Assembly: GCA_028287765.1 (NCBI GenBank)
Contig: JAQBPA010000229.1
Coordinates: forward strand, 1 to 43,573
Length of the DNA stretch: 43,573 bases
Direction of reading: 5' to 3'
Origin: Bacteriovoracaceae bacterium
Lineage (GTDB): Bacteria > Bdellovibrionota > UBA2394
Numbering within the stretch: the stretch's first letter is position 1; each line of letters opens with the position of its first letter. The position numbers and the translations under genes are program-made. Of the stretch, positions 78 to 22,592 are shown piece by piece. The notes under the pieces were generated by a model. The model ran no database searches. It saw nothing but the letters and a program-made list of their open reading frames with translations, and was not told where the DNA came from.

Positions 78-121
78 TCGACAATCTCTTGAAACAATAG
101 TTTTTTTCATAGATTAGCCTT

Positions 122-1998: not shown

Positions 1999-2130
1999 AT
2001 CTTCTGCCGCAGAGCACCAATTCACAAAAAGTAGTAAAATAAGAAAGTTATAGACGCTCTCGTGACTTCCTAGGGGATATGCAAATTAGTCATTTTTGTG
2101 GGCGTGCTATGAATTTTTTTTGGGGGAAAC

Positions 2131-4695: not shown

Positions 4696-4707
4696 ACCAA
4701 ATTACTT

Positions 4708-5607: not shown

Positions 5608-6864
5608 TTAAAACGAGAACTTAAATCCCGCCTGAATGGATATTCCTTCTGATAGGGTAAACTCTCTATTTGATTCACCTCGCGGCACCGCTAATTCAGC
5701 CACCGCGAGCATGAAATCGTTTAAAATGATTTCCGTACTTAAAAAGCCAATTCCCGATTGGTCCATGAGTGAATGAAGATAGCGCTCGAGAAGGGTGATT
5801 CTCTTTCCGGGTCCGAGATCATTTATTCGTATGGACTGATAAAGATAATATTTTCCAGGAAGTTCTAATCCGGGATGTAATGCACGGCTCGACTCGACGC
5901 TCGTGAGAGAGCCAGAAAGGAGTGCGGTCTGAAGACTCGAGTTAAATTCACGCTTCGTAAATCCATACGAGTTGATCAAAAATTCTCCTCGAATGTCGAG
6001 CCGTCCATCAAAACGAATTCCTAAATCTGCAAGACTCTCCATTCGAGACGATTCGCTTTTTATTCTTTCTAGACTGATTCCATTTTGCGTCGTTGCCGGA
6101 TAAAAAGCATCGGAGCCGAGCGTGTGCCTCGCGTCTCCATAGACTGAAAGTCCGTCGAGTAAACCGAGACTTGCGTATTCACCGATCCACACGCGCGACT
6201 TATCGCCTTTTCCGCCGGTGAGTCCGATATAGTCGGAGCCTCCCTTTTGAAATTCAATTTTTAAGAGGCCGATATATTTTGAATCGTAGCCAGCAATCCA
6301 ATCGGGAATTTTATTATCGAAGATCTGAGTTAAAGCGATAAGACTAAAATTTTCACCGAGTGAATAATTAATTTTTAAGAGGCCTCGTCCTTTCTCGACC
6401 CAAAAAATACTCTTTTGTCTCGGATCAAAATGGATGAGGGGATTACTCGGCGTCATTAATTCTGCCGGCCCCCATTGAAAATTTTGAACTCCACCTGAAA
6501 AATTTAACGCGTCTGAAAAGGCACAACTCGCATAGAGCTGCGTGAGACTAAAATTTCTCTCAAGTCTAAATTCATTTTTTGTGAGCGGGTGCGGAATCCA
6601 TTGGGGTTGAAGCTCGAAGCGAGGTTCAGCGACGAATTTTAGATCGCGAAACGACATTTTTGCCGAAGGTCGAAGATCTAAATCGCCGGCCCACCGGGGA
6701 CTTTTAAAAACGCGGTTGTCGATATTAATAGTCGACTTTTTTTCAGCGATATATTGACCGAGCGTATAAGTTTCTAGGCCTAACTTAAAATTTAAATCCG
6801 ATACGGCTGACTTCTCTGCCGGTATTTGCAGAAGAAAAATAAATGTGAAAAAAACGGATGGCAC
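5608..6864 (-). CDS. Predicted outer-membrane beta-barrel protein
   Basis: The frame opens with GTG at 6864, three bases after the stop of the LolA-like gene, so the two are almost certainly co-transcribed. The 418 residues start with a hydrophobic signal segment (residues 2-14). The rest alternates polar and apolar residues with many aromatic and Gly positions and ends in AGFKFSF, a terminal Phe typical of outer-membrane barrels. No specific porin family was recognised. LolA-like carriers paired with large barrel proteins occur in operons that move lipids or lipidic metabolites to the outer membrane. By analogy this protein may be the outer-membrane acceptor or conduit for the product of the PKS locus. 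The barrel call is moderately sure; the role is inference. Confidence 0.65.
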   Translation of the reverse strand: MPSVFFTFIFLLQIPAEKSAVSDLNFKLGLETYTLGQYIAEKKSTINIDNRVFKSPRWAGDLDLRPSAKMSFRDLKFVAEPRFELQPQWIPHPLTKNEFRLERNFSLTQLYASCAFSDALNFSGGVQNFQWGPAELMTPSNPLIHFDPRQKSIFWVEKGRGLLKINYSLGENFSLIALTQIFDNKIPDWIAGYDSKYIGLLKIEFQKGGSDYIGLTGGKGDKSRVWIGEYASLGLLDGLSVYGDARHTLGSDAFYPATTQNGISLERIKSESSRMESLADLGIRFDGRLDIRGEFLINSYGFTKREFNSSLQTALLSGSLTSVESSRALHPGLELPGKYYLYQSIRINDLGPGKRITLLERYLHSLMDQSGIGFLSTEIILNDFMLAVAELAVPRGESNREFTLSEGISIQAGFKFSF

Positions 6865-6867
6865 AAG

Positions 6868-7614
6868 CTAACGGGCGAGATTATTGATATTAAATTTACT
6901 TCCCGAAAAATCTTTTTCTTTCGGATTAACATAGGTGATGTCGCTTATGTTCTCGGCAAATTTTGAATCGGTAATTGTCATTCGACTAATAAATTGGATT
7001 TTTTGCCCGCTAGATAAAATGGAATTTCCATATTTAAAAGTCGCCACTTTAAACGGTTCGCCTTCGAGACTTAAAAATTCTGCCTTCATCGCAAGCTTCG
7101 ATTTTTCAGAAATATAATATTTGATTCGGTCGTAAGTAACTTTTTTGTCTTTGGCTTTTAAATCCAAAATAAAAACAGGCTCACCATCGATTTTTGTTTT
7201 ACCTACAATGCTTCCTTCATAATCACGTGAGTAATGGGTGGAGGCGATATCGCCATTTGCAGCCTGACCCGAAAGCCGTTGTCGCGCCGAAATGGAGATG
7301 GGCTTTCGAAGTCCCGGTTTATAAAACCACATATCGCGATCGTTAAAGAGATAGACCTCTCCTTTATTTCGCGCTGGAGAAAGTGCTTCGATGAGGGCGT
7401 CATCACCCTTTGCCTCGATACCAAACTCCCTCTCGGTCGTGCTTCCGGCCTCGATTGTTTTGAGTTGAACTTTCCATTCAAGACCCTTCAAAAGCCCGCC
7501 TCGTGCTCGGTCAGACGCCTTCAAAAGTTCTGTCGGAGAAGTTTCTGCGGCAGTTATGATTCCAGTCCATAAAAACGCGATAGCCGAAAACGCTTTAAAA
7601 TTATTCATTTTCAT
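6868..7614 (-). CDS. LolA-like periplasmic lipid/lipoprotein carrier (outer membrane lipoprotein-sorting family)
   Basis: The 248-residue protein has a signal peptide (MKMNNFKAFSAIAFLW, cleavage near TAA). A single long domain follows, resembling the COG2834-type outer membrane lipoprotein-sorting proteins. Typical features are an N-terminal helix (TELLKASDRARGG), a run of antiparallel strands, and DMWFYKPGLRKPISIS followed by TKIDGEPVFILDLKAK. The ribosome site GGAG lies six bases before ATG 7614. Such proteins shuttle hydrophobic cargo across the periplasm and are commonly encoded with LolCDE/MacB-like ABC exporters; a matching ATPase and two permeases lie at 19211-22592 in the same cluster. 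It is transcribed divergently from the phosphopantetheinyl transferase gene across an 85-base gap. Confidence 0.8.
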   Translation of the reverse strand: MKMNNFKAFSAIAFLWTGIITAAETSPTELLKASDRARGGLLKGLEWKVQLKTIEAGSTTEREFGIEAKGDDALIEALSPARNKGEVYLFNDRDMWFYKPGLRKPISISARQRLSGQAANGDIASTHYSRDYEGSIVGKTKIDGEPVFILDLKAKDKKVTYDRIKYYISEKSKLAMKAEFLSLEGEPFKVATFKYGNSILSSGQKIQFISRMTITDSKFAENISDITYVNPKEKDFSGSKFNINNLAR

Positions 7615-7699
7615 TCATTTCTCCGTTTTTAAAATGATTCTTCCAGCGATATGTTATTTAACACCATTGCCCTCAAATCTGCTATGTTCGGCGCACCCT

Positions 7700-8461
7700 A
7701 TGAGCGCGGTAGCCTCTTTTATTCCTTCTCACTCTTCTTGGCTCGATCGCCTTTCGCAAGAAAAAGTTCATATTTATAGAAGCAAATTTGACGATCTCTC
7801 CGAAGGACTTCTCGAGTACCTTTCACCCTCCGAAAAAATGAGAGCCGTATCAAGTCGGTCCTTTTCGAAAACTCAAAGAGAATTTGGACTGGGTCGCGGA
7901 TGGTTAAGACATCTTCTTTCCCGATATTCAAATATTCCTGCTGCGGAGCTGCGTTTGATTTTTGGAGAGAAGGGAAAGCCAGAGCTCTTTTGTAATCCTG
8001 CGCATCTTTCGTTTAATATTTCACACTCCGGCGACGAAATTTGCGCCATCATCTCTCAAAATTTAGAGGTGGGAATTGATCTTGAAGAGCTAAGCGAAAA
8101 AAAATGGAGCCCAAATCTGGCCGCCGAAATTTTATCGGAGAACGAGATCAGAGAATTCAACACATTGAATGAAAAAGAAAAAATGCGATCCTTTTTTTAT
8201 ATCTGGACGCAAAAGGAAGCTTATTTGAAAGCCATCGGAAGGGGTCTCTCGATTGCGCCGAACACGATCGAGGTGACAGTGAATCCACTTCGTTTGCCGC
8301 AACTCATCAAGAGCCTGTCGGCAGATGAGCCGAAAGAGTGGCAAATGTTTTCTCTCTTCGATTTGAAAGAATTTTACTGCATTGCAGCCGTTCGAACCTC
8401 TTCGAATCAGTTAGAGGCACCGAAAGTTATTCATTGGAAGGCAGACTCATGTCTAGATTAA
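7700..8461 (+). CDS. Sfp-type 4'-phosphopantetheinyl transferase
   Basis: This enzyme transfers phosphopantetheine from CoA to the active serine of carrier proteins, here most likely ACP1 and ACP2 of the neighbouring megasynthase. With ATG 7700 the product is 253 residues, the normal Sfp size. The family motifs are in order: GKPEL (92-96), FNISHS (105-110), VGIDLEE (124-130, Mg-binding Asp127 and Glu129) and WTQKEAYLKAIGRGL (169-183, with Lys172 and Glu173). An in-frame ATG at 7556 would run into the divergent LolA-like gene and add about 48 residues with no family resemblance, so I reject it. The next gene starts 13 bases before this one ends. Confidence 0.93.
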   Translation: MSAVASFIPSHSSWLDRLSQEKVHIYRSKFDDLSEGLLEYLSPSEKMRAVSSRSFSKTQREFGLGRGWLRHLLSRYSNIPAAELRLIFGEKGKPELFCNPAHLSFNISHSGDEICAIISQNLEVGIDLEELSEKKWSPNLAAEILSENEIREFNTLNEKEKMRSFFYIWTQKEAYLKAIGRGLSIAPNTIEVTVNPLRLPQLIKSLSADEPKEWQMFSLFDLKEFYCIAAVRTSSNQLEAPKVIHWKADSCLD

Positions 8462-10086
8462 AAAAAATTTCCAAAGGAGATTTTTTTGAATTTTTGGAAA
8501 ATCTCTCGAAGACTTATAAAAATAATATTGCACTTTCATGTCATCAGTCGAGCGAATGGAAGCTGATTTCTTTTCGTGACCTTCATGAGCAAGTTCTAAA
8601 GACAGCTTCTCGCCTTCAGATGGCAGGCCTTAAAAAGGGCGAGCGTGTCGTTCTGCTCGGAGAGTCTTCGATCGAATGGGTGATTCATTTTTTTGCCGTG
8701 CTTTTGTCTGGCGGCATTGCGATTCCACTTGATATCAAACTTGCGGATACCGAGATGGCGAATATTTTATCGCATTCTGAACCGAGTCTTCTTTTGGCAT
8801 CACTTAAATTTCGTGAGCTCGCAAGAAATTTGCGAACTGTCCCGAAACGTGCGAGCAAAGTTTTAATTTTAAATGACGGACTTTCTGATTCTTTGATTCC
8901 TAGTCTCCCATTTAATCGAGTGAAAGTTTCTCCAGAAGATCCGGTCGTCATTTGTTATACGTCCGGCACCTCGGGATCTCCCAAGGGCGTGATGGTTCCA
9001 CTTCGCACTTTTTTATTTGAGGCGGATGCCATGGCTAATATCAGTCGCGACATTAGCACAAAGGATGTGATGCTTTCGGTTCTTCCACTCAATCATTTGT
9101 TTGGGCTTGGCAGCGGACTTCTTTTTTCGCTCCGCTGTGGAATGGAATTTTGTATGGCCCATGATCTAAGCCCGGATGCGATTGTTTTTTGTTTTAAATC
9201 TCGTCGCGTCACTCATTTTCAAGTCGTTCCGCTTTTTTTGAAACTGATGATGCGTGAAATCCAGCGAAAGTCGCATGAGCGAATGGGTGAACTTAAATTC
9301 CGCTCCATTCTGAAATCAGCGAAGCTTCTAAGATTTAATACGTTAAAAAAAATGGCATTCAAAAAAATTCATGAACCCTTTGGTGGAACGCTGAAACGTT
9401 TTGTGTGCGGCGGCTCGGAACTTGATCCTCAGATTTTTGATTTTTTCTCGGCCATCGGCACGCCTATTTATAACGGCTATGGTCTTACGGAGACCGGCCC
9501 TGTTATTGCGACGAATGCTCCCAAACGGAATCGCCGAGGCTCTGTTGGCCTGCCGCTTCCCGGCGTCAAAGTGAAAATAGCAAACGGCGAAATTATAACC
9601 AAGGGTCCTCATCTCATGCTCGGCTATTACAGAAATTCGGAGCTCAGTCGTGAATCCATGGATGACAAGGGATGGTTTTATACGGGAGATATGGGCTATC
9701 TCGACAAAAAGGGATTTTTATATCTGAACGGTCGTAAAAAAAATCTTGTCGTTTTAAGTAACGGAAAAAAAATTCATCCCGAAGAAGTGGAATCTGCACT
9801 CTCGAAAACTTCCTCCATTAAAGAAATTTGTGTGGTGGGTCTTCCCTCGTCTTCTGAACTCGGGGAAAAAATTGTAGCCATCGTCATTCCTGCTGAGAAT
9901 TCTTCCGAATCGGACGTACGAGCAGAGATCGCGAGACTTTCAAATGACCTTGCGACCTATAAACGTCCGAGTGAGATTATTATTCGTCGCGAATCTTTTC
10001 CAGTTACAGCATCCATGAAAATTAAACGGCATCTGGTCAAAGATGAACTTCTTCAAACAAGTCTTGGAGCACGTAAAGGTGCATAA
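8449..10086 (+). CDS. Fatty acyl-CoA/acyl-AMP ligase (class I adenylate-forming enzyme)
   Basis: The 545-residue enzyme activates a carboxylic acid as acyl-adenylate. Motifs: P-loop YTSGTSGSPKG (170-180), YGLTETGP (344-351), YTGDMGYLDKKGFLYLNGRK (from 411) and the C-terminal catalytic Lys524 in ASMKIKR. I chose ATG 8449 because it overlaps the transferase stop by 13 bases; the longer frame from 8338 would lie inside that gene. In mycosubtilin/iturin synthases an acyl ligase domain is fused to the megasynthase. Here the megasynthase starts directly with an ACP, so this stand-alone ligase is the natural loader of ACP1. Whether it makes acyl-CoA or passes acyl-AMP straight to the ACP cannot be decided by eye. 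Confidence 0.9.
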   Translation: MSRLKKISKGDFFEFLENLSKTYKNNIALSCHQSSEWKLISFRDLHEQVLKTASRLQMAGLKKGERVVLLGESSIEWVIHFFAVLLSGGIAIPLDIKLADTEMANILSHSEPSLLLASLKFRELARNLRTVPKRASKVLILNDGLSDSLIPSLPFNRVKVSPEDPVVICYTSGTSGSPKGVMVPLRTFLFEADAMANISRDISTKDVMLSVLPLNHLFGLGSGLLFSLRCGMEFCMAHDLSPDAIVFCFKSRRVTHFQVVPLFLKLMMREIQRKSHERMGELKFRSILKSAKLLRFNTLKKMAFKKIHEPFGGTLKRFVCGGSELDPQIFDFFSAIGTPIYNGYGLTETGPVIATNAPKRNRRGSVGLPLPGVKVKIANGEIITKGPHLMLGYYRNSELSRESMDDKGWFYTGDMGYLDKKGFLYLNGRKKNLVVLSNGKKIHPEEVESALSKTSSIKEICVVGLPSSSELGEKIVAIVIPAENSSESDVRAEIARLSNDLATYKRPSEIIIRRESFPVTASMKIKRHLVKDELLQTSLGARKGA

Positions 10087-11137
10087 ACTGAAATTTTACT
10101 TCTTCCTTTTTTTGATCGTCATTGGCGTTTATACCGTGAACCTTTTAGTAGATGCGGGAGTCTTCACGAAGCTTCATCCCCATTTTAAAGGACAATGTGT
10201 GTCCTATAATGCGATCGCAGGAGCTGAGGATATGGAGTTCTCGAAGAGCCGTCAGACACTCTTTATTTCGAGCGATTTTCGCCCCGAGAGCGAAGGGGAT
10301 TCGACTCCGAACGGTGAGCTTTATATTTGGACGGCTAATGAAATTTCTCGAGGTGACTCGCCGCCCCATAAATCATCCTGGGGAGCGCCATTTTCTTTTC
10401 ATCCTCATGGACTTGGCCTTTTGGATGGTCCGGAGGGACCACGCCTTTGGGTTGTGAATCATCGAACCGCCGAAGAGACGAGCATTGAAGTCTTTGATTT
10501 TATCAAAGGTCAACTCGTCCATGTGACAAGCATTTTTGATCCGACGCTCACCAATGCAAATGATATCGCACCGGTCGACCGCGAAACTTTTTATGTGACC
10601 CTTGATCATCGCGGGAAGTCTAATTTCCAGAAAAAAATCGAAGACTATTTAAGATTAGGTCTCGGGAAGGTCATTTTCTTCGATGGAAAAAAATTTGAAG
10701 CGAAGGCTTCTGGAATACAGTTTGCGAACGGAATTCAACTCACAAAAGACAGGCTTAAACTTTTTGTGGCGTCGATGACGTCCAAATTTATTTTGATTTA
10801 TCGACGTCATCCCATGACGAATGATCTGGAGTTCATCGAGAAGAAAGAGCTCCCAAGTGCTCCCGATAATTTGACATTGGATGATACAGAAGAGAATTTA
10901 TGGATCGGAGCTCATCCTAAATTACTCGCTCTTGCAAAACAAATGCACCACCATCAAATCCATGCGCCAGCGCAAGTGCTTCGAATGAATCTCAAAAATA
11001 ACTCTCTCATTGAAGAAATATTTCTCGATGACGGAAAGCAAATTTCTTCAACGAGTGTTGCCGTGAAGATCGGAAAAAATCTCATTCTTGGAAGTATTTT
11101 TGGCGACAATATTCTTAAATGCCAGCCGGTGGAATAA
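10043..11137 (+). CDS. Membrane-anchored paraoxonase (PON)-family lactonase/arylesterase
   Basis: The 364-residue protein is a six-bladed propeller of the paraoxonase family. By alignment to human PON1 from memory, the calcium ligands are all present: Glu62-Asp63 (GAEDMEF), Asn173-Asp174 (NANDIAP), Asn229 (FANGIQ) and Asp275-Asn276 (PDNLTLD). The catalytic histidine pair matches His122 (HPHGLGL) and His140 (VVNH), and the structural disulfide matches Cys52 and Cys360. Residues 15-36 form an uncleaved hydrophobic anchor, placing the propeller in the periplasm. PONs hydrolyse or form lactones and aryl esters. The gene overlaps the ligase by 44 bases and overlaps the convergent megasynthase end by 23. 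Role inferred: final lactone/ester processing or self-protection. Confidence 0.88.
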   Translation: MNFFKQVLEHVKVHKLKFYFFLFLIVIGVYTVNLLVDAGVFTKLHPHFKGQCVSYNAIAGAEDMEFSKSRQTLFISSDFRPESEGDSTPNGELYIWTANEISRGDSPPHKSSWGAPFSFHPHGLGLLDGPEGPRLWVVNHRTAEETSIEVFDFIKGQLVHVTSIFDPTLTNANDIAPVDRETFYVTLDHRGKSNFQKKIEDYLRLGLGKVIFFDGKKFEAKASGIQFANGIQLTKDRLKLFVASMTSKFILIYRRHPMTNDLEFIEKKELPSAPDNLTLDDTEENLWIGAHPKLLALAKQMHHHQIHAPAQVLRMNLKNNSLIEEIFLDDGKQISSTSVAVKIGKNLILGSIFGDNILKCQPVE

Positions 11138-14100
11138 TCGATTTTAAGGCGTCTTCCAGAATTTTGGAATAACGATTGGCCCAGACAATTATTTCTTCTG
11201 CTTTAAGTTCATGTGTTTGAAAATCAATTTCGAGATGATAAAAATATTCGAGATCTGTGAGATTGAAACTCAAATCAAATTCAGCAGCCGCAATCGGGTA
11301 TGCGTACATAAAAAGACTGACATCATTAAAGTCGGGAAGTTCAGCAAGAGGCTCCACATTAAAGCTGACGTTAAAAAGTGGAGCATCCAATTTTTCTTTT
11401 AGCTTCTCATAAGGGTGAGACATATTTTGATAGGCCTCAATGAGTTCTGCCTTTACGCGTTTGGTTTGATCCACGAAGGATTCATTTTCTTTTGTCGTAA
11501 ATTGAATCGGAACTAAATTCGCACAATTTCCAATCATTCCTTCTGCGCCGTCTAAATCACGATTGGCTGCAGGAACTCCAATCGTAAGAGTTGAAGATTC
11601 ACTCATTTCTTTTAAGAGCGAGTAGAACGAACTCAAAAGACACATCATCGGTGTCATCTTCCATTCTTTGGCAGCAGCCTTTAACTTTTTATAAATGGCG
11701 TTATCAATCGGAAAGGTGAGTCGCTCAGCCTTGAGAGAAGGAGTTTTCTCATTTTGTGTTTTTGTATTCTTCCACTTTAGAAATTCTGGAGGCTTTTTAA
11801 ATTTTTCTTCCCAATGTTTTTTTGCATTTTCTAGACGACTCACCGGCCCAAAATGATTGGGCGTTTCTAAGAATTTAAAGAATTGCATTTGAGGAACAAA
11901 ATCGAAAGGCTCACTCATATCGATCGCGCGGTAGGCCTTGGCGAGATCTTCGATAAAGCGAGAAATCGCCCAGCCGTCGAGAGCGATATGATGACAAACC
12001 ATCGAGAAGACAGCCGTCTCTTCGGCCACATCATAGAGTCGAAATCGCACAGGCGGTTCTTTCTCGAGAAGAAAAGGCCGCTTACCTTCTTCGAGAAGTC
12101 GAGCGTCAAGCTCCTGCCAGGGAGCTTCGAACGAAGTTAAATCCTCAGAGTCAAAGGGAAGAGATGTCGTTGGATCAAGCCACTGAAGTCCTTTTGTTAA
12201 ATCCACTCGCAGACGAAAGACATCCGAGAGGCTGAGCATTTTAAAAAGTGCTTTTTCGAGAACCGTCTTCTTAAGAGGACCCTTCATTTTTACTGAAAGA
12301 CAAATATGACTCGCCGCTTCGCCGTCAGCGCTTAGAAGGCTCAAGTCTTGAAATCGTTTTTGAGCCGATAGAAATCCTTTCGTATCCGGAGTGTGCTCTT
12401 TCGCCAGATCTTTCGGTTTTAAAAATCCAACATCGATGAGTTCATGCGTGACGTCTTTGACCGTTTGTATAAAAAAGCGAATGTCTTCAGCCGTATGCGC
12501 AGTGGAGAGAAACAGATTTCGACCTTCCCAAATATAAACCCCGCGCAGATTCATATTGTAAAAGAAGAGATCTAAATTGGCAGCCGCCTTAAATCGAAAG
12601 AGCGAGCCAAAATTATTTACTGTAATTTCAAGATTAACGGACTGAAAAAATTCTGTGAGTTCAGTCGCGAGCCCGTGTGTGCGGCGATTGAGATTTTCGA
12701 GAATCTCTTTTCCTTCTGTACTGACTTTTTCAAGAACAGCATTGGCCGAGGCCATTGCGAGGGGATGCTTACTAAAGGTTCCTGCAAAGAACGTCATTTC
12801 AGATTGAGGATAGGTCGTATCTCCGAAGTTCCAGTCACCTCCGTCAATCGAATCCATAAATTTAGAGCTTCCGCCGACGGCCCCGATGGGAAGACCTCCA
12901 CCCAAAATTTTTCCGTAGGACGCAATATCGGCTTTGACTCCGAAATGTTCTTGAGCTCCGCCCGGACAAATACGAAAGCCCGTAATCACTTCGTCAAAAA
13001 TAAGTGCGGTTCCCGATTTTTCCGTAATCGCGCGGACTTCTTTTAAGAAAGCTTGTGGTTGATGCTCGGGGAACCGACTCTGAACTGGTTCTACCAGTAC
13101 AGCTGCGAGAAGATGCGCATTTTGACGAATAATTTCGAGAGACTCTGGAGCTCCGTAGTCTAAAACCAAAACGTCTCGAACAAGACCCTGCGTTACGCCA
13201 GAAGCAACAGGCGTGGTCACTCCGTCAGCAGAGGTTCTCGCGAGTACACCGTCGAAGTGTCCGTGATAGGAACCATCAAAGAGAACAATCTTTTCTCTCT
13301 TCGTCGCTGCTCGCGCAAGGCGAATTGCCGTCATCACGGCCTCAGTACCCGAATTGCAAAATGCAATTCGATCCATGCCCACGAGTTTGGCCATCTTTTC
13401 GGCAACCTGTCCTGCAAGGTAGGACTGCGGTCCGAGACACATTCCGAGTTCGGATTGCTTCATGATCGCCGTATGAATGAAATCGGGATTATGACCGAAG
13501 AGATTTACTCCAAATCCCATCGTAAAATCGACGTAGGAATTTCCGTCGAAATCTTCGAAGCGGCTTCCTTTCGCTTTGTAACAAATGATCGGATAGACGA
13601 CTTCTTTTAAATTGGGACGAAATCCCGCACTCGTTCGATTGTCAGCGAGGAGCTTTCTAAACTTTTGCGTATGCTCTTTTGTTTTAGGCGTACGCGCGTT
13701 GAATTTTTTGATGAGGTCCTCGAGGTAGCGAGCTTTTTGTTCACTCTCTAATTCGCTTCGCTCACGGTCCGCAAAGTTTTTAAAATTCCCGAGAACGCCG
13801 CGTTTTTCGGTCGGCGCGTGTATTCGGATATCGAGTATTCCACCACTGTCGAGAGCAGCTGCTTGGAATTTTTGCGCAGATTCTCGACTGATATGATCGG
13901 CAATTTTTCGAAGGGTCGAGAGATCCTGAAAAATATCGGAGATCGAAATGCTCACATGATATTTATCTTTGATCGCTTGAATGGCATTCAAAAGAAGGAG
14001 GGAGTCTGCACCTAATTCGATGAGCGCTTCATCCACATTTAAATTTTCACTACTAATCTGAAGAAGTTTTCCAACAATTGAAACCAGCTCCGTGAGAATT

Positions 14101-17054
14101 TCTTCGTGAGAATATACTTGATGGAGCTCGCTCGGCGGCAGTTTAGCCGTGATGCTTCGAACGGGATTACTCCAATATTTTGTTTTTTGAAAGACGGTAA
14201 ACGGTAAAGCATCGGACTGCGTTTTATTTTTAGAAGGAGAGGGTTTCCAAAAACCCCAAACCCCAAGTTCAGAAAGTCCCTGATAAAAACTTTCAACCGC
14301 ATCTTGATTACGGGAGAGCAATTTAAATGAACGCGTTTTCTCAAGATTTTCTTTTGAAATGCAGGCCTGCGCCATCGTGATAAGAGTCGGATGCGCTCCG
14401 ATTTCTAAAAAGCCGTTACAGCCAAGAGCTTCCAAGGTTTGCATGCCTTTCAAAAATTGTGTGGGTTCGCGGAGATGCTTCGCCCAGTAGGCAGTCGAAT
14501 AAACATCGGAAGTTGCAATCACGTCTCCCGTAAGACTTGAAACAAGGGGAATCGAAGTATTTGCATACTGAATTTTTTGAATCGCCTTTTCAAAAGGCTG
14601 GAGTACGGAATCCATTTGTCTCGAATGAAAGGCTCGATCCGTTCGGAGTTCTGAGACGCGGATATTTTTATTTTTGAGATCATCTTTTAATTTCTGAATT
14701 TCAGAGACATTTCCGGAAAGAATAAAAAGTTCCGGGCCATTGACGGCGGCGATTTCAAGTGAGAGTTTTTCTTTGTTGAGAGTCGCCTCAATCACGTCTC
14801 GCTTTTCGAAAACAGCGAGCATGGCACCCGCAGAAGTTTCCTGCATGAGTTTTCCGCGCATCGTGACCATGAGGACCGCTTCTTCAAGCTTGATTGCCCC
14901 GCTCACGGTAGCGGCAATACATTCTCCAAGAGAGTGACCGAAGACAGCCGCTGGTACGATTCCAAAATCTTCTTTTAAGAGCTGCGCGAGCGAATAACCG
15001 ACAGAAAAAATGGCAGCCTGTCCGTAATCTGTTTGCGAAAGTGCCTTCGCCTCACTCTCTCCACTTTGACTTACGATCGTATAAAGATCGTTCGGATAAT
15101 ATCGATCAAAAAGTTCGCAGCAATCTTCAAAAGCTTTTCGAAAGGATGGAAACTGCGAATATAGTCCCATCGCCATTCCTGAATATTGCGATCCTTGGCC
15201 TGTAAATAAAAAAGCGAGTTTACGCTGCGGCTTTGTTATCGCTCGACCGTGAGCCCATCCATTTGATGGCTCCCTTAATAAAAAGGATCCGATTCGCTCT
15301 GAAAGTTCTATTCGAGTTTTTCCGTGAACCATCATTCTCTCTGGCAGATCGAGTCGTTGTTCGATGGAAGCGGCCGCCAATTTTAAAAGTTCCGAATCTT
15401 TGATTTCAAGAAGAGATTTTTTTAGAGTCTCAGCACTTTTCCTTAAGCTCTCTTCGTCAGTTGCGGAAAAGGCGAGTAGATTGGAAGGCGTTTTGAGAGT
15501 TTTATCTTGAGCCGTCGAATTTTGATATTCCTCTAAAATTAAATGCGCATTCGAGCCGCCAAAGCCAAAGGAGCTAATGCCAGCCATGCGACTTTTTCCG
15601 TCCCTTTTATTCCAAGCGCTGCCTTCACTTTCAACTTTTAAATTTGTACAGCCCTCTCCAATTTTGGAATTGAGAGATTTGAAATGAAGAGTTTTAGGAA
15701 TCCATTCATGCTTTGCTGCGAGAACGGCCTTGATCACTCCAGCGACTCCCGCTGCCGCTTCGAGATGACCAATATTTGATTTCACGGATCCTACTGCACA
15801 GGGAAGATTTTTTGGCCGATCGCCAAGAACTCGGCTGAGAGATAAATATTCGATTGGATCGCCAAGCGCCGTTCCTGTGCCATGAGCTTCGATATAGGTA
15901 ATTTCTTCTGCAGCCACCTTCGCATCCGCCAAGGCGTGCCGAATCACTCTCTCTTGTGCGACTCCGTTAGGAGCAGTAAGTCCGCTGCTCCTACCGTCTT
16001 GGTTGATCGCAGAACCGCGAATCACAGCGTGAATTCGGTCGCCGTCACGAACAGCATTCGAAAGTTTTTTCAGTACCAAAACTCCTGCGCCCTCGCTTCT
16101 GACGTAACCATTCGCACCTTCTGAAAAACTTTTGCAGCGACCTTCGGGAGATAAAAATCCTCCCTGCGAAAAGGCAGCCGAGATCACGGGGTCGAGAAGA
16201 ATATTTACTCCACCCGCAAGCGCGAGTTCTGAATCTCCATTTTTAAGACTTCGGCAAGCGAGATGAATGGCGGTAAGTGCGGATGAGCAAGCGGTGTCGA
16301 CACTCACACTCGGGCCGGTAAAATTAAAAAAGTATGAAAGTCGATTGGGAGAAATACTGTGGGCGTTTCCGGTGACGTCGTAAACATTAACGGCATCGGA
16401 ATTTTTAACGCCGAGAATCAGATAGTCACTATTACTAATCCCGACAAAAACTCCCGTTCGGCTTTGATCGAGTTGACTGGGAGAATACCCCGCATCTTCA
16501 ATCGCTTCCCAACTGCACTGAAGAAGAAGCCTCTGCTGCGGATCCATTTTTTCTGCTTCGATTTTTGAAAGTCGAAAAGCTTCGGCATCAAATTCTTCAA
16601 TGCCCTGAAGAAATCCACCCCATTTTGGAGATAGATCGGAGTTCCAGCGGTCTGCGGGAATTTCACTAATCGCATCCACGCCGTTTTTAAGAAGATTCCA
16701 AAATTCATCGACTGAGCGCGCTCCTGGAAATCGGCAGCTCATCCCAATGATGGCGATAGGTTCCGAACTTACTTCTGCCCTCGCAAATGTTTCGGCCGCC
16801 TCGTTTGGATTCGCGATATGCTCGGCGAGCTGACGAATCGTCGGGTAGTCAAAAATAATCGTCGGCGCCAGTTTGAGAGTAAGCTTTGAATTCAGATTGG
16901 AAACAATATGAACCGCTTGAAGAGATTCAATTCCCATCTCTGCAAAAGGCTGATCAATATCCATCTCTGTCGTCGGACGACCAGTGACCACCGAAATCTG
17001 AGTGATGATTTCAGAAATAAAGGTGGGAACCGAATCCGACAGAGTTCTGCTCAC
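11115..17054 (-). CDS. Hybrid PKS megasynthase ACP-KS-AT-ACP-aminotransferase-condensation
   Basis: With GTG 17054 the protein is 1979 residues. The start is chosen because TAAGG sits seven bases upstream and the preceding gene stops at 17062; an ATG at 17114 would overlap that gene by 53 bases. Domains in order: ACP1 about 15-80 (Ser44 in GIESL); ketosynthase 98-510 (Cys256 in DTACSS, His391 in EAHGTG, His430 in SNIGH); acyltransferase 613-910 (Ser708 in GHSLGE; AFHS motif points to malonyl-CoA); ACP2 985-1055 (Ser1018 in GADSL); class III PLP aminotransferase 1145-1545 (Lys1382 in SYGKILGGG); condensation domain 1558-1975 (SAQKR, HHIALDG at 1688-1694). No KR, DH or ER is present, so the beta-keto group would go straight to beta-amino, as in MycA/ItuA. 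No adenylation, PCP or TE domain follows the C domain. Confidence 0.93.
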   Translation of the reverse strand: MSRTLSDSVPTFISEIITQISVVTGRPTTEMDIDQPFAEMGIESLQAVHIVSNLNSKLTLKLAPTIIFDYPTIRQLAEHIANPNEAAETFARAEVSSEPIAIIGMSCRFPGARSVDEFWNLLKNGVDAISEIPADRWNSDLSPKWGGFLQGIEEFDAEAFRLSKIEAEKMDPQQRLLLQCSWEAIEDAGYSPSQLDQSRTGVFVGISNSDYLILGVKNSDAVNVYDVTGNAHSISPNRLSYFFNFTGPSVSVDTACSSALTAIHLACRSLKNGDSELALAGGVNILLDPVISAAFSQGGFLSPEGRCKSFSEGANGYVRSEGAGVLVLKKLSNAVRDGDRIHAVIRGSAINQDGRSSGLTAPNGVAQERVIRHALADAKVAAEEITYIEAHGTGTALGDPIEYLSLSRVLGDRPKNLPCAVGSVKSNIGHLEAAAGVAGVIKAVLAAKHEWIPKTLHFKSLNSKIGEGCTNLKVESEGSAWNKRDGKSRMAGISSFGFGGSNAHLILEEYQNSTAQDKTLKTPSNLLAFSATDEESLRKSAETLKKSLLEIKDSELLKLAAASIEQRLDLPERMMVHGKTRIELSERIGSFLLREPSNGWAHGRAITKPQRKLAFLFTGQGSQYSGMAMGLYSQFPSFRKAFEDCCELFDRYYPNDLYTIVSQSGESEAKALSQTDYGQAAIFSVGYSLAQLLKEDFGIVPAAVFGHSLGECIAATVSGAIKLEEAVLMVTMRGKLMQETSAGAMLAVFEKRDVIEATLNKEKLSLEIAAVNGPELFILSGNVSEIQKLKDDLKNKNIRVSELRTDRAFHSRQMDSVLQPFEKAIQKIQYANTSIPLVSSLTGDVIATSDVYSTAYWAKHLREPTQFLKGMQTLEALGCNGFLEIGAHPTLITMAQACISKENLEKTRSFKLLSRNQDAVESFYQGLSELGVWGFWKPSPSKNKTQSDALPFTVFQKTKYWSNPVRSITAKLPPSELHQVYSHEEILTELVSIVGKLLQISSENLNVDEALIELGADSLLLLNAIQAIKDKYHVSISISDIFQDLSTLRKIADHISRESAQKFQAAALDSGGILDIRIHAPTEKRGVLGNFKNFADRERSELESEQKARYLEDLIKKFNARTPKTKEHTQKFRKLLADNRTSAGFRPNLKEVVYPIICYKAKGSRFEDFDGNSYVDFTMGFGVNLFGHNPDFIHTAIMKQSELGMCLGPQSYLAGQVAEKMAKLVGMDRIAFCNSGTEAVMTAIRLARAATKREKIVLFDGSYHGHFDGVLARTSADGVTTPVASGVTQGLVRDVLVLDYGAPESLEIIRQNAHLLAAVLVEPVQSRFPEHQPQAFLKEVRAITEKSGTALIFDEVITGFRICPGGAQEHFGVKADIASYGKILGGGLPIGAVGGSSKFMDSIDGGDWNFGDTTYPQSEMTFFAGTFSKHPLAMASANAVLEKVSTEGKEILENLNRRTHGLATELTEFFQSVNLEITVNNFGSLFRFKAAANLDLFFYNMNLRGVYIWEGRNLFLSTAHTAEDIRFFIQTVKDVTHELIDVGFLKPKDLAKEHTPDTKGFLSAQKRFQDLSLLSADGEAASHICLSVKMKGPLKKTVLEKALFKMLSLSDVFRLRVDLTKGLQWLDPTTSLPFDSEDLTSFEAPWQELDARLLEEGKRPFLLEKEPPVRFRLYDVAEETAVFSMVCHHIALDGWAISRFIEDLAKAYRAIDMSEPFDFVPQMQFFKFLETPNHFGPVSRLENAKKHWEEKFKKPPEFLKWKNTKTQNEKTPSLKAERLTFPIDNAIYKKLKAAAKEWKMTPMMCLLSSFYSLLKEMSESSTLTIGVPAANRDLDGAEGMIGNCANLVPIQFTTKENESFVDQTKRVKAELIEAYQNMSHPYEKLKEKLDAPLFNVSFNVEPLAELPDFNDVSLFMYAYPIAAAEFDLSFNLTDLEYFYHLEIDFQTHELKAEEIIVWANRYSKILEDALKSIIPPAGI

Positions 17055-17061
17055 GATGGCC

Positions 17062-17913
17062 TTACTTCTTCTTAAGGGTTCGTGCGAGATGCATCGTGTT
17101 GTCGGCAAAATCATTCCAGAGATCGAGCCAAATCGTGACTCGCTTCTTCACTTCATCATATCTCTCCGGAACAATCGCTTGCCTAAAAATATACCAAGAA
17201 TCTTCGGAGTGATCGTCGTCAATCGACTCACCGTGCTCATCGTCTACGTGAATCGCGTGATAACCTTCAGAGGTATCGATATCGGTCGAAAGCGAAACAC
17301 TTTTTGCCCACGGCCCCGCGTAGAGAGTAAACACAGTTTCTGCACAGGCGAGTACGGCCGTCAAAAGAACGTAGTCATTATAATGATCCGTGAATGTTTT
17401 TCGTGCAGCTTTGGATGCAGGCGATGGTTTGTAATTTAAAATTTCTGAAGCGCTGGATCCTAAACTCTCAAGCGTTTTTACAAACTGAATATAGTGAGCA
17501 AGAAAAGGTGTCCCCCAGTAGTCGCCCGTCACTTCATCGTTTGGAAAAAAACCAAGCTCATCAAGAAGATTGAGTTGCAAAAGAAATCGTGACGTCACTT
17601 TTCCGGCTGGCCCGAGTCGTGGCTCAAGATCTGCCGACTGCGCCATCGCATGAATGAGGGAGTCGGTAAAAATTTGTGCAAAGCCGTGAGCAAATTCTAA
17701 GTGAATAGCTTTGGTGACTTCGGGGTTTAGTTTTTCGGTATTGAGAACTCCTTTAACCGGATGGCGAGACATTCGATGGGTCGCGATCAAAGCTTTGAGT
17801 TCATCGACATAGGCGACGTTTTTGGCCCAGAGATCGGGAGGAACAGATTGTTCAATTGCGGCACGACAGACTGCTCGAGGTTTGGATTTATCGAAACCAG
17901 TGGTTTTAGCCAT
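17062..17913 (-). CDS. Putative heme-oxygenase-like diiron oxidase/oxygenase
   Basis: The 283-residue cytoplasmic protein appears almost all-helical, with no signal peptide. It has the look of the iron-containing redox enzyme superfamily (UndA, CADD, SznF-type HDO fold): HLEFAH at 71-76, CAETVF with Glu192, and a very His/Asp/Glu-rich stretch at 218-238 (YHAIHVDDEH then IDDDHSED), which resembles the H-x-x-x-D-x-x-H metal-binding helix of that family. The exact ligand set is not certain by eye. It sits 7 bases upstream of the megasynthase start, so it is co-translated with it and probably acts on the carrier-bound or released beta-amino acyl chain (desaturation, N-oxygenation or oxidative cleavage are family precedents). 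Family call is inference, not a clear motif match. Confidence 0.6.
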   Translation of the reverse strand: MAKTTGFDKSKPRAVCRAAIEQSVPPDLWAKNVAYVDELKALIATHRMSRHPVKGVLNTEKLNPEVTKAIHLEFAHGFAQIFTDSLIHAMAQSADLEPRLGPAGKVTSRFLLQLNLLDELGFFPNDEVTGDYWGTPFLAHYIQFVKTLESLGSSASEILNYKPSPASKAARKTFTDHYNDYVLLTAVLACAETVFTLYAGPWAKSVSLSTDIDTSEGYHAIHVDDEHGESIDDDHSEDSWYIFRQAIVPERYDEVKKRVTIWLDLWNDFADNTMHLARTLKKK

Positions 17914-17979: not shown

Positions 17980-18735
17980 TTAGACAAAGAAATTCTGCGT
18001 GAGAGACAAAAAAACAGATTTGGCATGTTCGAAGTGATAAAAATGGCCGCCGGGAAAAATTTGGACATCGTGAAGAATCGTGCCAAAGTCGGCCCATTGT
18101 TTGAGTTCTTCGGGTTTCACAGAAGAATCATCTGCTCCGCCAAACACAAGAAGCGGAACAGAGAGAGGTTTTATATCCTCCGTTTCATAAGCTTCCATGA
18201 GAGCGATATCGGCTCTCAAAATTTTTAAAAAATAAGTCCGTGCCGCAGAATCTCTTAAAATTTCTGGCGCAACGGGTGCAAATTGGCTGAGCTTTTCGAT
18301 GAGTTCAGTCTCTGGAAGATGTGCAATTTTTTCTCGCTCTCGAAGATTTTTTTGCGAAGGTGGACGAAAGGAAGAAAGCGCGAGGCCGCGAATTTTTTCT
18401 CGAAAAGGCGAGTGCAGCGCTCGATAGAGTTCAAAAGCGATGAGCGACCCCATGCTATGACCAAAAAAAACGGAGGGAGTATCTCCCTCGGATTCGAAGG
18501 CTGCTTTTAAATCTTCAATAAGACTTTTGAAATTCATCAAAAGTTTTTCACGATGACGAGCGCCGTGCCCCGGAAGTTCAACCACAATAAGTTCCACATT
18601 TTCGGGAGCTAAGTCTCGCCACTTTGAATAAGACAGGGAACTTCCACCGGCGTGCGGAAAAACAAACAATCTCATCTGAGCATGGGGGCGCGGTTTAAGT
18701 CGGTAGAACCAAGGAGACTTCATGGACGATAGCAT
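17980..18735 (-). CDS. Type II thioesterase (GrsT/RifR-like alpha/beta hydrolase)
   Basis: Type II thioesterases remove wrong or stalled acyl groups from carrier proteins and sometimes release product. The 251 residues are the usual size. Motifs: LFVFPHAGGSSLSY at 23-36, nucleophile Ser94 in FFGHSMGS, acid near Asp202-Asp203, and catalytic His231 in PGGHFYHFEH. It is the first gene of the minus-strand unit thioesterase - diiron oxidase - megasynthase. An internal ATG at 18723 (MKSPWFYR) is an alternative start; neither has a good ribosome site. Because the megasynthase has no TE domain, this protein is also the only obvious in-cluster hydrolase for chain release. Confidence 0.9.
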   Translation of the reverse strand: MLSSMKSPWFYRLKPRPHAQMRLFVFPHAGGSSLSYSKWRDLAPENVELIVVELPGHGARHREKLLMNFKSLIEDLKAAFESEGDTPSVFFGHSMGSLIAFELYRALHSPFREKIRGLALSSFRPPSQKNLREREKIAHLPETELIEKLSQFAPVAPEILRDSAARTYFLKILRADIALMEAYETEDIKPLSVPLLVFGGADDSSVKPEELKQWADFGTILHDVQIFPGGHFYHFEHAKSVFLSLTQNFFV

Positions 18736-18803: not shown

Positions 18804-19226
18804 ATGACGCATTATGGCGAGCTCAATATCACAACCGGCTGGATCTTTATTTCTCTCGGAATCACGACTGGCTCGATCATCGGGCTTTGGTCGTTTGATG
18901 GACCGTTTCCGACTCCTAAGGGACATACAAATTATACAGATCTTCCCCGCCGCTTAAACCGTCTCGCCCATATCGCTTGTTTTATGTTGCCGCTCATTTC
19001 TATCGTTTACGGCCAATACCTTGATCAGGCGCTGCTGACAGACGCTCAAAAATTGATCGGCGCTTACAGTATGGTCACTTGTATGATTGGTGTTCCGCTC
19101 TTTCTTTTTCTTGCTTCGTTTTATTTGCCTTTCAAATATTTGGAAGTGATCCCGGTAACTGCTGGTTGCGTCGCGCTCTATTTGATGTCGTGGGCACATT
19201 TAAAGATTTTATGTTCATTCAACTGA
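18804..19226 (+). CDS. Four-helix integral membrane protein, function unknown
   Basis: The 140-residue protein has about four hydrophobic segments (near 10-30, 55-72, 85-108 and 113-132) separated by a short loop containing TPKGHTNYTDLPRRLNRLAH. Start ATG 18804 is preceded by AAGGGAG. I do not recognise the family. It overlaps the ABC ATPase start by 16 bases and leads the exporter unit, so an accessory role in the transporter is plausible but is inferred only from position. Confidence 0.75.
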   Translation: MTHYGELNITTGWIFISLGITTGSIIGLWSFDGPFPTPKGHTNYTDLPRRLNRLAHIACFMLPLISIVYGQYLDQALLTDAQKLIGAYSMVTCMIGVPLFLFLASFYLPFKYLEVIPVTAGCVALYLMSWAHLKILCSFN

Positions 19227-19891
19227 AAGAAGTTCGAAAGATTTACGCTCTCGGCGATACCAAAGTGAATGCGCTGAACGGAATTGATCTCACACTCGGT
19301 CGTGGAGAATTTACAGCGCTCGTTGGAACGTCAGGTTCTGGAAAGACCACCCTTCTCAATATGATCGGTTGTATCGATCGACCCACTTCAGGCGATGTCA
19401 TCATTGATGAGGTAAACGTCGTTAAATTAAATGAGGTTGAGCTCAGTGATTTTAGAAATAAAAAACTTGGATTTATTTTTCAGACTTTTAATCTTCTTCC
19501 GGTTTTAAATATTTTCGAAAATATAGAACTTCCACTTCTCATTCAGCGAAATCTTTCGGCTTCAGAGCGAAAAGATCTCGTGATGCAGGCGATTGAGGAT
19601 GTCGAGCTTACAAAATATATTCATCATATCCCGGACCGCCTAAGTGGTGGGCAGCGGCAGAGAGTCGCCATTGCGCGCGCACTTGTCACGAACCCAAGTC
19701 TTATTCTCGCTGACGAGCCCACGGCCAATTTGGATTCCGAGACTGCACATAAAATTTTAGATTTGATGCAATCTCTCAATGAAAAGAGAAAAGTCACTTT
19801 TCTCTTTTCGACTCACGATGAAAAGCTGATGAGCCGAGTGAAGCGAATGATAAGAATTGTAGACGGACATTTCGCTTCGGATCACGCGTGA
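19211..19891 (+). CDS. LolD/MacB-type ABC transporter ATP-binding protein
   Basis: The 226-residue ATPase powers the two permeases that follow. Features: Walker A GTSGSGKT (39-46), Q-loop IFQTFNLLP, signature LSGGQRQR, Walker B LILADEPT and the H-loop in FSTHDE. ATG 19211 is chosen since it gives the usual LolD N-terminus ([12 protein letters not shown]); the longer frame from 19079 lies within the preceding membrane-protein gene. It overlaps that gene by 16 bases and the next by 4 (GTGA). LolD/MacB-type ATPases drive extrusion of lipids, lipoproteins or amphiphiles from the inner membrane rather than import. Confidence 0.95.
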
Positions 19892-21270
19892 AAAAACCAG
19901 ATTTTCATTTCTGGAAGCTCGCCTGGCGAAATCTGTGTCGACATTGGAAGAGAAATCTCTCCACCGGCCTAGCCATTGGCGCTGGATTTGCTGGGATTGT
20001 GCTCCTTGGCGGCTACCTTCTTCGAATGGAATTTTATTTAATCACTCAAAGTGTTTATTTAAATCATGTCGGGCATGTGGCGATTTATAAACCGAATGGC
20101 CTCGATCGGCATTTATCGGATCCTGCTAAATTTAATCTCACGCTCGAAGATCAGTCGAAAATTATGACGGGCATTTCAGAGCTTCGAGAAAAACCGGAAT
20201 TCATCAGTAAATCTCTTGAAGGGCAGGGACTCGTCTCGAATGGCTGTCAGGTTTTTCCTTTTTTAGCTCTGGCTGTGGATTCGAAAATGGAAAGCCAAAT
20301 TCGCAATCATCCAGAAGTTCTCGCCAGAGTTCCAGAGCTTGCTCAGCTCAAAATGGGGCGCGGCTTTTGGGAGACGCCGGAGCTGCCAGATGGAATTTTA
20401 ATTTCAAAAAGACTCGCCGCTCGTTTAAAAAAGCCACTCGTCTCAGGAGGTGCAGGAGAAGTGCCGTCAGCAATGGACGCTCTCATCACCGATTGCGAAA
20501 ATCCTGAATCCGAAAAAATAATTTCCAGTCACTCGGGGCTTCAGCTGATCGGCAGCACTTTCGAGAAAGGCATAGCGGCTACAGATGCGAGAGTGTCGGG
20601 CCATTTCACTACGGGTCTCACACTCTCCGAAGATACCGCCATGCTTATGCCGCTCGCTCTCGCTCAAAAATTTTTTGATACCGATTCGGTGACATTCATT
20701 TCGATTTACCTCCAAAAAGGGTCAAGAAGCTTAGCTACAGACGTCTCGGGCGAACTTCAAAATATTTTTTTGAAGCACGGCTGGGATTTTGACGTCTATC
20801 CTTTTTACGATGAGCGGGTGAGTCCGTATTACGTGGGTGCCATGACGTTTGTTTATGTGATGGCTCTCTTTTTTCTTATTCTCGTCTGTGGTGTGGCCGC
20901 TTTATCGATTTTAAATTCACTACAAATCTCATTTATGGAACGCCGGACAGAAGTGGGAACGCTTCGAGCGATTGGCTACCGACCCGCACAAATTGTCGGC
21001 CTGTTCGCGAGAGAGATCGCTCTTCTTACAGGCATCTCGCTCATCGGCGGGGGAATTGCCGCCGCCTTGATAGCCTTCGCCATTAATGCGGCTGAACTGC
21101 GCTTTTACGTTCCTGGCCTTGCGGGAAGTTTGCATTTTTTACTCAAACCCGGATTTGTTTTTAGTTTGATCGTGGGTGCCATCTTTTTTTCGGTTTGTAT
21201 GGGCGCCGTTTTTGTCACGGGAAGACGTTGGTCTAAAATTAAGGTTGTGGATCTGCTGGAGAATAAATGA
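19888..21270 (+). CDS. FtsX/MacB-like ABC permease, first subunit
   Basis: The 460-residue protein starts with GTG in a GTGA overlap with the ATPase. It has the MacB/LolC-type layout: one N-terminal transmembrane helix (about 24-45, after the basic WRNLCRHWKRNL), a large periplasmic domain (about 50-300) and three C-terminal helices (about 315-340, 365-390 and 420-445) containing SFMERRTEVGTLRAIGY, the FtsX family cytoplasmic coupling segment. It pairs with the next permease, whose N-terminus is similar (RNISRHWKRSLA), so a LolC/LolE-like heterodimer is likely. Inferred cargo is the lipidic product of the adjacent synthase. Confidence 0.9.
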   Translation: MKKPDFHFWKLAWRNLCRHWKRNLSTGLAIGAGFAGIVLLGGYLLRMEFYLITQSVYLNHVGHVAIYKPNGLDRHLSDPAKFNLTLEDQSKIMTGISELREKPEFISKSLEGQGLVSNGCQVFPFLALAVDSKMESQIRNHPEVLARVPELAQLKMGRGFWETPELPDGILISKRLAARLKKPLVSGGAGEVPSAMDALITDCENPESEKIISSHSGLQLIGSTFEKGIAATDARVSGHFTTGLTLSEDTAMLMPLALAQKFFDTDSVTFISIYLQKGSRSLATDVSGELQNIFLKHGWDFDVYPFYDERVSPYYVGAMTFVYVMALFFLILVCGVAALSILNSLQISFMERRTEVGTLRAIGYRPAQIVGLFAREIALLTGISLIGGGIAAALIAFAINAAELRFYVPGLAGSLHFLLKPGFVFSLIVGAIFFSVCMGAVFVTGRRWSKIKVVDLLENK

Positions 21271-22592
21271 AAGCCGATCTCCAAATGTTTTCACGAGTGG
21301 CTCTTCGAAATATTTCTCGTCATTGGAAGAGAAGCCTCGCGGCCATTTTATCTCTCGCTTCTGGGTTCGCTGCCATCAATCTTTTTGAAGGCTATATCGC
21401 GGACGTCGAACATGTTTTTTCTGAGACTTATTCCAAGAGATTAATGTACGGAGATATTTTGATTCAGCGAAAGGAGACACTCACCGATGGTCTTGAAGAG
21501 GGCGAGCGACTCATCCGTCAAGAAGATCAACACCAGCTCGAAGAAATTCTTGAGAAATCTAAAATGGTCAATAATTCTGTTCGATTTTTAAATATTACTG
21601 GCCTGGTGTCGAATGGATCCGCGACGAGTGTGTTTCGGGGTCTCGGATATGATGTCGACGCCGGTCTTAAAATGCGAGAGCCAAATTGGAGTTGGAATGC
21701 ACTAGCGGGAATTCCACTCGATCAAGGCGTACGAAATCCGCAAAATATTTTGATTGGTCAGGGCCTGGGAAGAATTCTTGATTGTAGTCCGACATCGCGA
21801 CCTAAAGAGATGACTTTTTTAAACGGCTATTCGAGGGAATCTCGTCCCATCGTTTGTAAAACTTCCGAACTTGAACTCAATGTGACGAGTGGCACGGGCC
21901 AGATGAATGCGACCAATGTGCATGTACACGGAATGATCGACGCCGTTTATCGAGAGTTTGATGCGCGCTATATTGCCATGTCGCTTGAAAAAGCGCAGGC
22001 ACTTCTCAATACGTCGGGCGTATCGCTTTATAGTGTTCGGCTGAAAGATTCTTCCGATGCAAAAAAATTCATTTCTTATTTGAGCGAAGAGTTCACTCGA
22101 AAAAATTTATCGCTTAAGGCCTTTAAGTGGCAGAACCATTCGTTCGGGGGGCTCTATGTTCAGAGTATTGATTTCTTAAACGTCTTTCGGGATTTTACGC
22201 TGATTGTCGTTTTAATTATTATTTCACTTTCTGTTCTGAGTCAGTTGATGCGCCTCGTTCAGGAGAGAACACGTGAAATCGGGACTCTTCGTTGTCTCGG
22301 ATATATGCCACATCAAATCCGTTCACTTTTTCTAATCGAAGCATTCTTTCTTTCTATTTTTGGAAGTGCTCTCGGTGCTCTGCTTACGGTAGTTCTCGCT
22401 CCCGCTATGAACTCGCTAGGGATTCTTTATAAGGTAGGGATTCTTTCCGAAAAAATCCCTTTTCGAATTAGTATCGTGGGAGTGAACTTCGGCATGAGCG
22501 CTTTCGTTCTTACGGCAATTGCCATGGGTGCCGCCACGATTGCCATTTTAAGAGCACTGCGAAAGAGTATTCCCGACGCTTTAATGCATTAA
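21267..22592 (+). CDS. FtsX/MacB-like ABC permease, second subunit
   Basis: The 441-residue partner permease begins in an ATGA overlap with the first. It shows the same topology: an N-terminal helix (about 18-38), a periplasmic domain, and C-terminal helices with LVQERTREIGTLRCLGY as the coupling segment near 335-351. The two subunits are recognisably homologous at both ends but diverge in the periplasmic part, as expected for a heterodimeric Lol-type complex. With the LolA-like carrier and barrel at 5608-7614 it would make a full inner- to outer-membrane route. Confidence 0.9.
   Translation: MKADLQMFSRVALRNISRHWKRSLAAILSLASGFAAINLFEGYIADVEHVFSETYSKRLMYGDILIQRKETLTDGLEEGERLIRQEDQHQLEEILEKSKMVNNSVRFLNITGLVSNGSATSVFRGLGYDVDAGLKMREPNWSWNALAGIPLDQGVRNPQNILIGQGLGRILDCSPTSRPKEMTFLNGYSRESRPIVCKTSELELNVTSGTGQMNATNVHVHGMIDAVYREFDARYIAMSLEKAQALLNTSGVSLYSVRLKDSSDAKKFISYLSEEFTRKNLSLKAFKWQNHSFGGLYVQSIDFLNVFRDFTLIVVLIIISLSVLSQLMRLVQERTREIGTLRCLGYMPHQIRSLFLIEAFFLSIFGSALGALLTVVLAPAMNSLGILYKVGILSEKIPFRISIVGVNFGMSAFVLTAIAMGAATIAILRALRKSIPDALMH

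Follow-up and report, generated by a model that had tools for sequence, protein, structure and literature searches.

The window, by which we mean the whole 43.6-kb stretch of DNA analysed here, encodes a polyketide synthase (PKS)-aminotransferase-condensation protein of about 1979 aa on the reverse strand (11115..17054), identified by Pfam and by six homologues of the same length. The mechanical open reading frame is longer (11115-17114, reverse strand, 1999 aa), and its extra N-terminal stretch is absent from the aligned homologues. Because the homologues lack this stretch and GTAAGG lies just 5′ of a GTG at 17054, position 17054 is a better start than 17114 and this GTG the probable start codon, in line with the gene limits proposed in an earlier note on this DNA.

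Within the longer frame, Pfam places the domains in the order ACP-KS-AT-ACP-AMT-C, all far above the cut-offs and all on the reverse strand. ACP1 (16815..17012, aa 35-100; PF00550) carries MGIESLQ and is followed by the ketosynthase (15369..16763, aa 118-582; PF00109/PF02801/PF16197) with DTACSS, EAHGTGT and SNIGHLE. The acyltransferase (14259..15212, aa 635-952; PF00698) has the malonyl-type motifs GHSLGE and AFHS, and ACP2 (13881..14114, aa 1001-1078; PF23297/PF00550) has GADSL. A class III, HemL-like aminotransferase (12441..13595, aa 1174-1558; PF00202) contributes the PLP lysine in YGKILGGG, unchanged in the alignment of all seven proteins, and the terminal condensation domain (11142..12368, aa 1583-1991; PF00668) reads HHIALDG at 11973-11996. 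All diagnostic PKS, aminotransferase and C-domain motifs are intact in the window protein, and Pfam matches no KR, DH or ER in the frame. The domain order, intact catalytic residues and lack of reductive domains read earlier from the sequence thus agree with Pfam and motif analysis.

The protein extends 12 residues beyond the C-domain profile match, and across the whole window Pfam detects no A domain, PCP or NRPS gene; that nothing follows the C domain had also been observed before. A truncated-contig artefact is out, as the PKS gene is internal to the contig and six other genomes encode a protein of the same length and end. We also weighed whether a 511-aa SDR-like gene (22636-24171) might supply a concealed ketoreductase, and set it aside because none of the other clusters yielded a homologue. 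Its product contains a cysteine-rich, CxxC-type stretch, and its SDR profile matches are split in two.

Neighbouring genes and distribution in the phylum

When the AMT-C part of the window PKS is searched against 369 genomes from its phylum, six other frames of about 2000 aa with a full AMT-C are recovered (G241, G112, G123, G283, G252 and G118). These represent four families besides that of the window genome (G000), for a total of seven genomes in five families. Genes for a thioesterase, an acyl ligase, a 283-aa protein and a 140-aa membrane protein, TM140, recur beside the PKS gene in all seven clusters. TM140 is the most conserved member, at 54-63% identity, and the 283-aa protein shows 47-54%. 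A profile of the 283-aa protein, searched in the same 369 genomes at E <= 1e-10, matches in eight. TM140 and the PKS accompany it in every one of these; the G251 contig ends inside the PKS gene and holds only its N-terminal part. The distribution is patchy, because close family members of the window genome (G001-G004) lack the cluster.

Among the matches listed from a scan of the whole collection, at least two named records belong to the clade: L063, a MAG of the Silvanigrellales, and L107, an Oligoflexus MAG. They suggest, without proving it, an origin of the window in Bdellovibrionota or near relatives. The Silvanigrellales genome carries the TM140 and 283-aa genes side by side, on a contig separate from the PKS. 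In the Oligoflexus record (5981-8596) AMT-C is split over separate frames, and the genome has neither the 283-aa protein nor TM140; the pathway may be decaying together there, or the assembly may be faulty. The literature searched, on terminal C domains with beta-amino PKSs and on heme-oxygenase-like dimetal oxidases (HDOs) with beta-aminoacyl chains, describes no such cluster, including in what appears to be the phylum concerned, that of Bdellovibrio and Silvanigrella relatives.

The earlier note had listed no thioesterase, which is incorrect: a type II thioesterase (17980..18735, reverse strand; PF00975, 5.7e-31) lies two genes upstream of the PKS gene on the same strand. Between the two is the gene for the 283-aa diiron-oxidase-like protein (17062..17913, reverse strand), assigned from homologues, a structural model and Foldseek. 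Divergent from these three genes is that of TM140 (18804..19226, forward strand; assigned by homologues), followed by an ABC ATPase and two FtsX-type permeases (19079..22592, forward strand; PF00005, PF02687). The 283-aa protein and TM140 had been overlooked, like the thioesterase. On the other side of the PKS gene, a paraoxonase/arylesterase-like gene (10043..11137, forward strand; PF01731) adjoins its 3′ end and is found in six of the seven clusters (the exception being the short G283 contig), as well as in L063 and L107. The acyl-AMP/CoA ligase is, as previously noted, a separate gene (8338..10086, forward strand; PF00501, 2.9e-72), with a likely internal start near 8446. A 4′-phosphopantetheinyl transferase gene (7556..8461, forward strand; PF01648) precedes it and is also close to the cluster in G241, G283 and G252 and on the Silvanigrellales contig.

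Next come two genes on the reverse strand, both conserved in G241, for a LolA-like protein (6868-7614; PF17131) and a 418-aa putative outer-membrane barrel (5608-6864), the latter recognised by the appearance of its sequence, with no Pfam match. Both are likely export partners. The export genes differ between clusters: the window and G241 share the ABC ATPase/FtsX set with the LolA-like and barrel genes, whereas G123, G118 and G252 have an MMPL exporter near the cluster, accompanied in G252 by a LolA-like gene; the FtsX pair is also present in L107. Elsewhere in the window (24975-25675), a Gp49/HigB-like toxin gene (PF05973) is followed by a small gene, perhaps for the antitoxin, and the two likely form a pair.

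The diiron-oxidase-like protein and TM140

The window copy of the 283-aa protein has no Pfam match at the default cut-off, and its HDO fold was recognised through its homologues and an AlphaFold model (pLDDT 84). PF14518 (iron-containing redox enzyme) is matched by six of the seven, at best with 1.8e-7, the window copy being the exception, and Foldseek with the model returns BesC (E 2e-4), CADD (TM-score to target 0.82), PolF, UndA and HrmI. As modelled, the protein has a heme-oxygenase-like helical fold. Known HDOs use the ligand series E-H-E-H-(D/E)-H (PMC11363339), and the aligned homologues have the invariant residues E119, H140, E192, H222, D232 and H235 in this order, which could supply the metal ligands. 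The protein shares the fold of UndA, BesC, CADD, PolF and HrmI and has, judged by sequence, a candidate ligand series, but its sequence similarity is marginal (BesC profile E 0.004), and its E-to-H segment and core alpha-3 both carry inserts. Most known HDOs have fatty acids or amino acids as substrates (PMC13108848). A fatty acid with a beta-amino group would belong to both kinds, and the protein probably acts by a predicted diiron/O2 reaction on the beta-amino fatty part of the product.

TM140 has four transmembrane helices and an invariant His56. Its model aligns with styrene oxide isomerase at a TM-score of 0.70, the best among the top matches, with a weak Foldseek E of 0.075; neither profile-profile comparison nor shuffled alignments give any signal against the sequence of PDB 8pnu. 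The catalytic network of styrene oxide isomerase lies in helix 3 and comprises D95, N99 and Y103 (PMC11374702). These have no invariant counterpart in TM140, in which the invariant residues of helix 80-104 are limited to K83, C93, M94, G96, P98 and L101. The invariant histidine is near the start of helix 2, roughly at the position of the heme ligand H58 of the isomerase. With no sequence signal and no helix-3 network, styrene oxide isomerase is kept as a lead only.

TM140 homologues also occur in a second, different cluster, represented by L193 (G263, 80-3385) and L194 (G302, 1280-5129). The neighbouring genes there encode an acyl ligase, a B12-binding radical SAM protein (DUF4070) and a stand-alone ACP, and neither PKS nor oxidase is present. 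The role of TM140 therefore seems to extend to acyl-derived products made by more than one chemistry.

The terminal condensation domain

The ACP-KS-AT-ACP-AMT-C order, free of reductive domains, is shared with MycA and ItuA of mycosubtilin and iturin biosynthesis and with puwainaphycin-type PKS-NRPS proteins. Among the matches listed, AMT and C are about 36-41% identical over their full length to Bacillus/Paenibacillus and cyanobacterial loci. In MycA and ItuA, however, the ligase is fused at the N terminus, and A-PCP and further NRPS modules follow the C domain. Because both the fused ligase and the downstream A-PCP are absent here, we do not place the cluster in the MycA/ItuA family, from which it also differs by its diiron-oxidase-like protein, TM140 and exporter.

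In a tree of 122 C domains (a quick tree without bootstrap, with long branches elsewhere and no characterised starter-C set), the nine terminal domains, those of the seven clusters plus L063 and L107, form one clade with an SH-aLRT of 100. This clade sits inside the branch that holds most of the C domains that come after aminotransferases. On this grouping, the best fit would be a clade that arose once, from a MycA-like hybrid that then lost its peptide part.

The earlier note had asked whether the HHxxxDG core might be inactive in all homologues. It does not appear so, as the second His and the DG are unchanged in the alignment of all seven. The first His is replaced by Q in G112 and by N in G252, which gives a family motif of (H/Q/N)HxxxDG. 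These two replacements, together with a faster divergence of the C domain than of the aminotransferase (27% versus 57% identity to L063), would fit a C domain that survives only as a degenerating remnant of an assembly line of the MycA type, with release left to the thioesterase alone. We consider this improbable, since the catalytic His and DG persist throughout, GNCxN-like and FNxEP-like motifs are shared between families and the reading frame is intact in all seven.

Canonical elongating C domains of NRPSs have the same catalytic second His and DG, but they work with an acceptor carrier, which is normally located downstream of the C domain. We find no such partner here. A condensation search of the window genome returns a single domain, the C at the end of the PKS, and each of the six other cluster genomes likewise has exactly one, in the same position. 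In G000, G241 and G252 there are three carrier domains each, namely the two PKS ACPs and an AcpP flanked by FabF- and FabG-like genes, and nothing beyond these could serve as acceptor carrier for an elongating-type C. The additional carriers of the remaining cluster genomes are stand-alone frames of 77-132 aa, and AcpP-like carriers are present in all seven. An NRPS partner elsewhere in the genome, a search for which the earlier note had proposed, is ruled out by these genome-wide condensation and carrier searches, and an NRPS-type acceptor is excluded about as well as draft genomes allow. Extended to the relatives, these searches back both the beta-amino acyl reading and the orphan status of the C domain far better than one contig could.

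The window genome is only 76% complete, which leaves room for an A-PCP protein or NRPS partner that supplies the acceptor from the missing parts of the genome. Five of the six relatives, however, are 98-99% complete and have the one condensation domain each, and the carriers of G241 and G252 are all accounted for by the PKS and AcpP; a missed partner is highly improbable. The condensation search, run as a control on the genomes of Fischerella L086 and Streptomyces L084, returns 22 matches in each. Their PKS-AMT-C proteins, like that of Streptomyces L089, end in a C domain and were considered as the same system, but not retained; L084 and L086 are set apart from the window cluster because of these 22 matches each and the lack of TM140. 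In Fischerella L086 (6608-13927), the PKS-AMT-C gene is followed on that strand by small genes and a gamma-glutamyltranspeptidase gene, not by an NRPS gene.

Proposed pathway

We propose that the cluster makes an exported, oxidised beta-amino lipid, with C-domain release onto a free nucleophile, a reading to which we give an even chance. The ligase would activate a fatty acid and probably loads it onto ACP1, and KS-AT would add one malonyl unit to give a beta-ketoacyl chain on ACP2. Since there is no KR, the beta-ketoacyl chain is predicted to be transaminated directly to beta-aminoacyl-ACP2, as in MycA and ItuA and consistent with the domain order and intact residues. The terminal C domain would then condense the chain with a free nucleophile and so release it; the head group of a lipid, or a small amine or alcohol that diffuses freely, is the most likely candidate. 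This choice of acceptor is suggested because the genome holds no carrier-bound NRPS acceptor. The thioesterase would edit stalled chains, and the diiron-oxidase-like protein and TM140 would modify the product before or after release. Transfer to the outer membrane would fall to an exporter of the ABC/FtsX or MMPL type, together with the LolA-like and barrel proteins. As a type II thioesterase, oxidase-like, membrane and paraoxonase-like proteins and an exporter belong to the gene set, further oxidation of the product and its export are probable.

C domains that use free amines are known. VibH and SchH do so, and the terminal module of glidonin biosynthesis adds putrescine (PMC10587159), while OaaC joins acyl-ACP to diffusible amines (PMC13142362). 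VibH, SchH, glidonin C13 and OaaC all take a diffusible amine with no acceptor carrier (PMC10587159, PMC13142362), and the absence of a carrier-bound acceptor here is consistent with their type, although the window C domain differs in being fused to a beta-amino PKS. The C domains of the FAA/OaaC type are free-standing and carry DHxxxDS, whereas that of the window is fused and belongs to a family with (H/Q/N)HxxxDG; this difference in motif counts against release onto a free nucleophile.

The strongest rival to a free nucleophile is a self-condensation of two ACP2-bound chains. The C domain would join two beta-aminoacyl chains, the amine on one ACP2 attacking the thioester of another, to give dimers, oligomers or a cyclic diamide that the thioesterase releases. 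The ACP2-bound chain is the only evident carrier-bound amine in G000, G241 and G252, and the thioesterase is part of all seven clusters. Donor and acceptor would, however, come from the same kind of carrier, and we regard this alternative as unlikely.

The amine on ACP2 could also be the target of N-acylation by a starter-C-like activity with a fatty acyl-ACP or acyl-CoA donor, after which the thioesterase would free an N-acyl beta-amino acid. Starter-type C domains take acyl-CoA donors (PMC13142362), and both the AcpP-like carriers and the thioesterase are conserved. Against this, the tree, which contains no characterised starter-C, groups the domains with post-aminotransferase C domains, for which the chain on the upstream ACP is the donor. 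N-acylation accordingly seems distinctly unlikely.

The compact stand-alone beta-amino lipid pathway of the earlier note is incomplete, the gene set being wider. The observation in that note is partly confirmed and the interpretation partly supported. The cluster probably makes a new kind of modified amino lipid. More specifically, and as one tentative joint proposal that we consider possible but on balance doubtful, the product would be a new class of exported lipid in which a C-released beta-amino chain is attached to a non-peptide head group, remodelled by the oxidase and handled by TM140. Candidate oxidase chemistries under this proposal are N-oxygenation, desaturation/decarboxylation and azetidine-type C-N ring formation, and TM140 would handle acyl-derived products as a new type of membrane enzyme or carrier.

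How a C domain functions when there is no carrier-bound NRPS acceptor can be studied here in a natural test case that recurs in several families within the phylum. The cluster also links a beta-amino PKS with heme-oxygenase-like oxidases of an uncharacterised group. The small, self-contained set of about a dozen genes makes heterologous expression practical, and mass spectrometry could reveal the product. One lineage has an enlarged version of the cluster. In G252 (L059, 8547-13110), two fatty acid desaturase genes, a cyclopropane-synthase-like methyltransferase gene and one more gene lie between those of TM140 and the oxidase-like protein, and at the corresponding place in G251 (L192, 4061-8657) lie four frames that match these genes in size. 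The insert suggests that this lineage decorates its lipid chain in another way.
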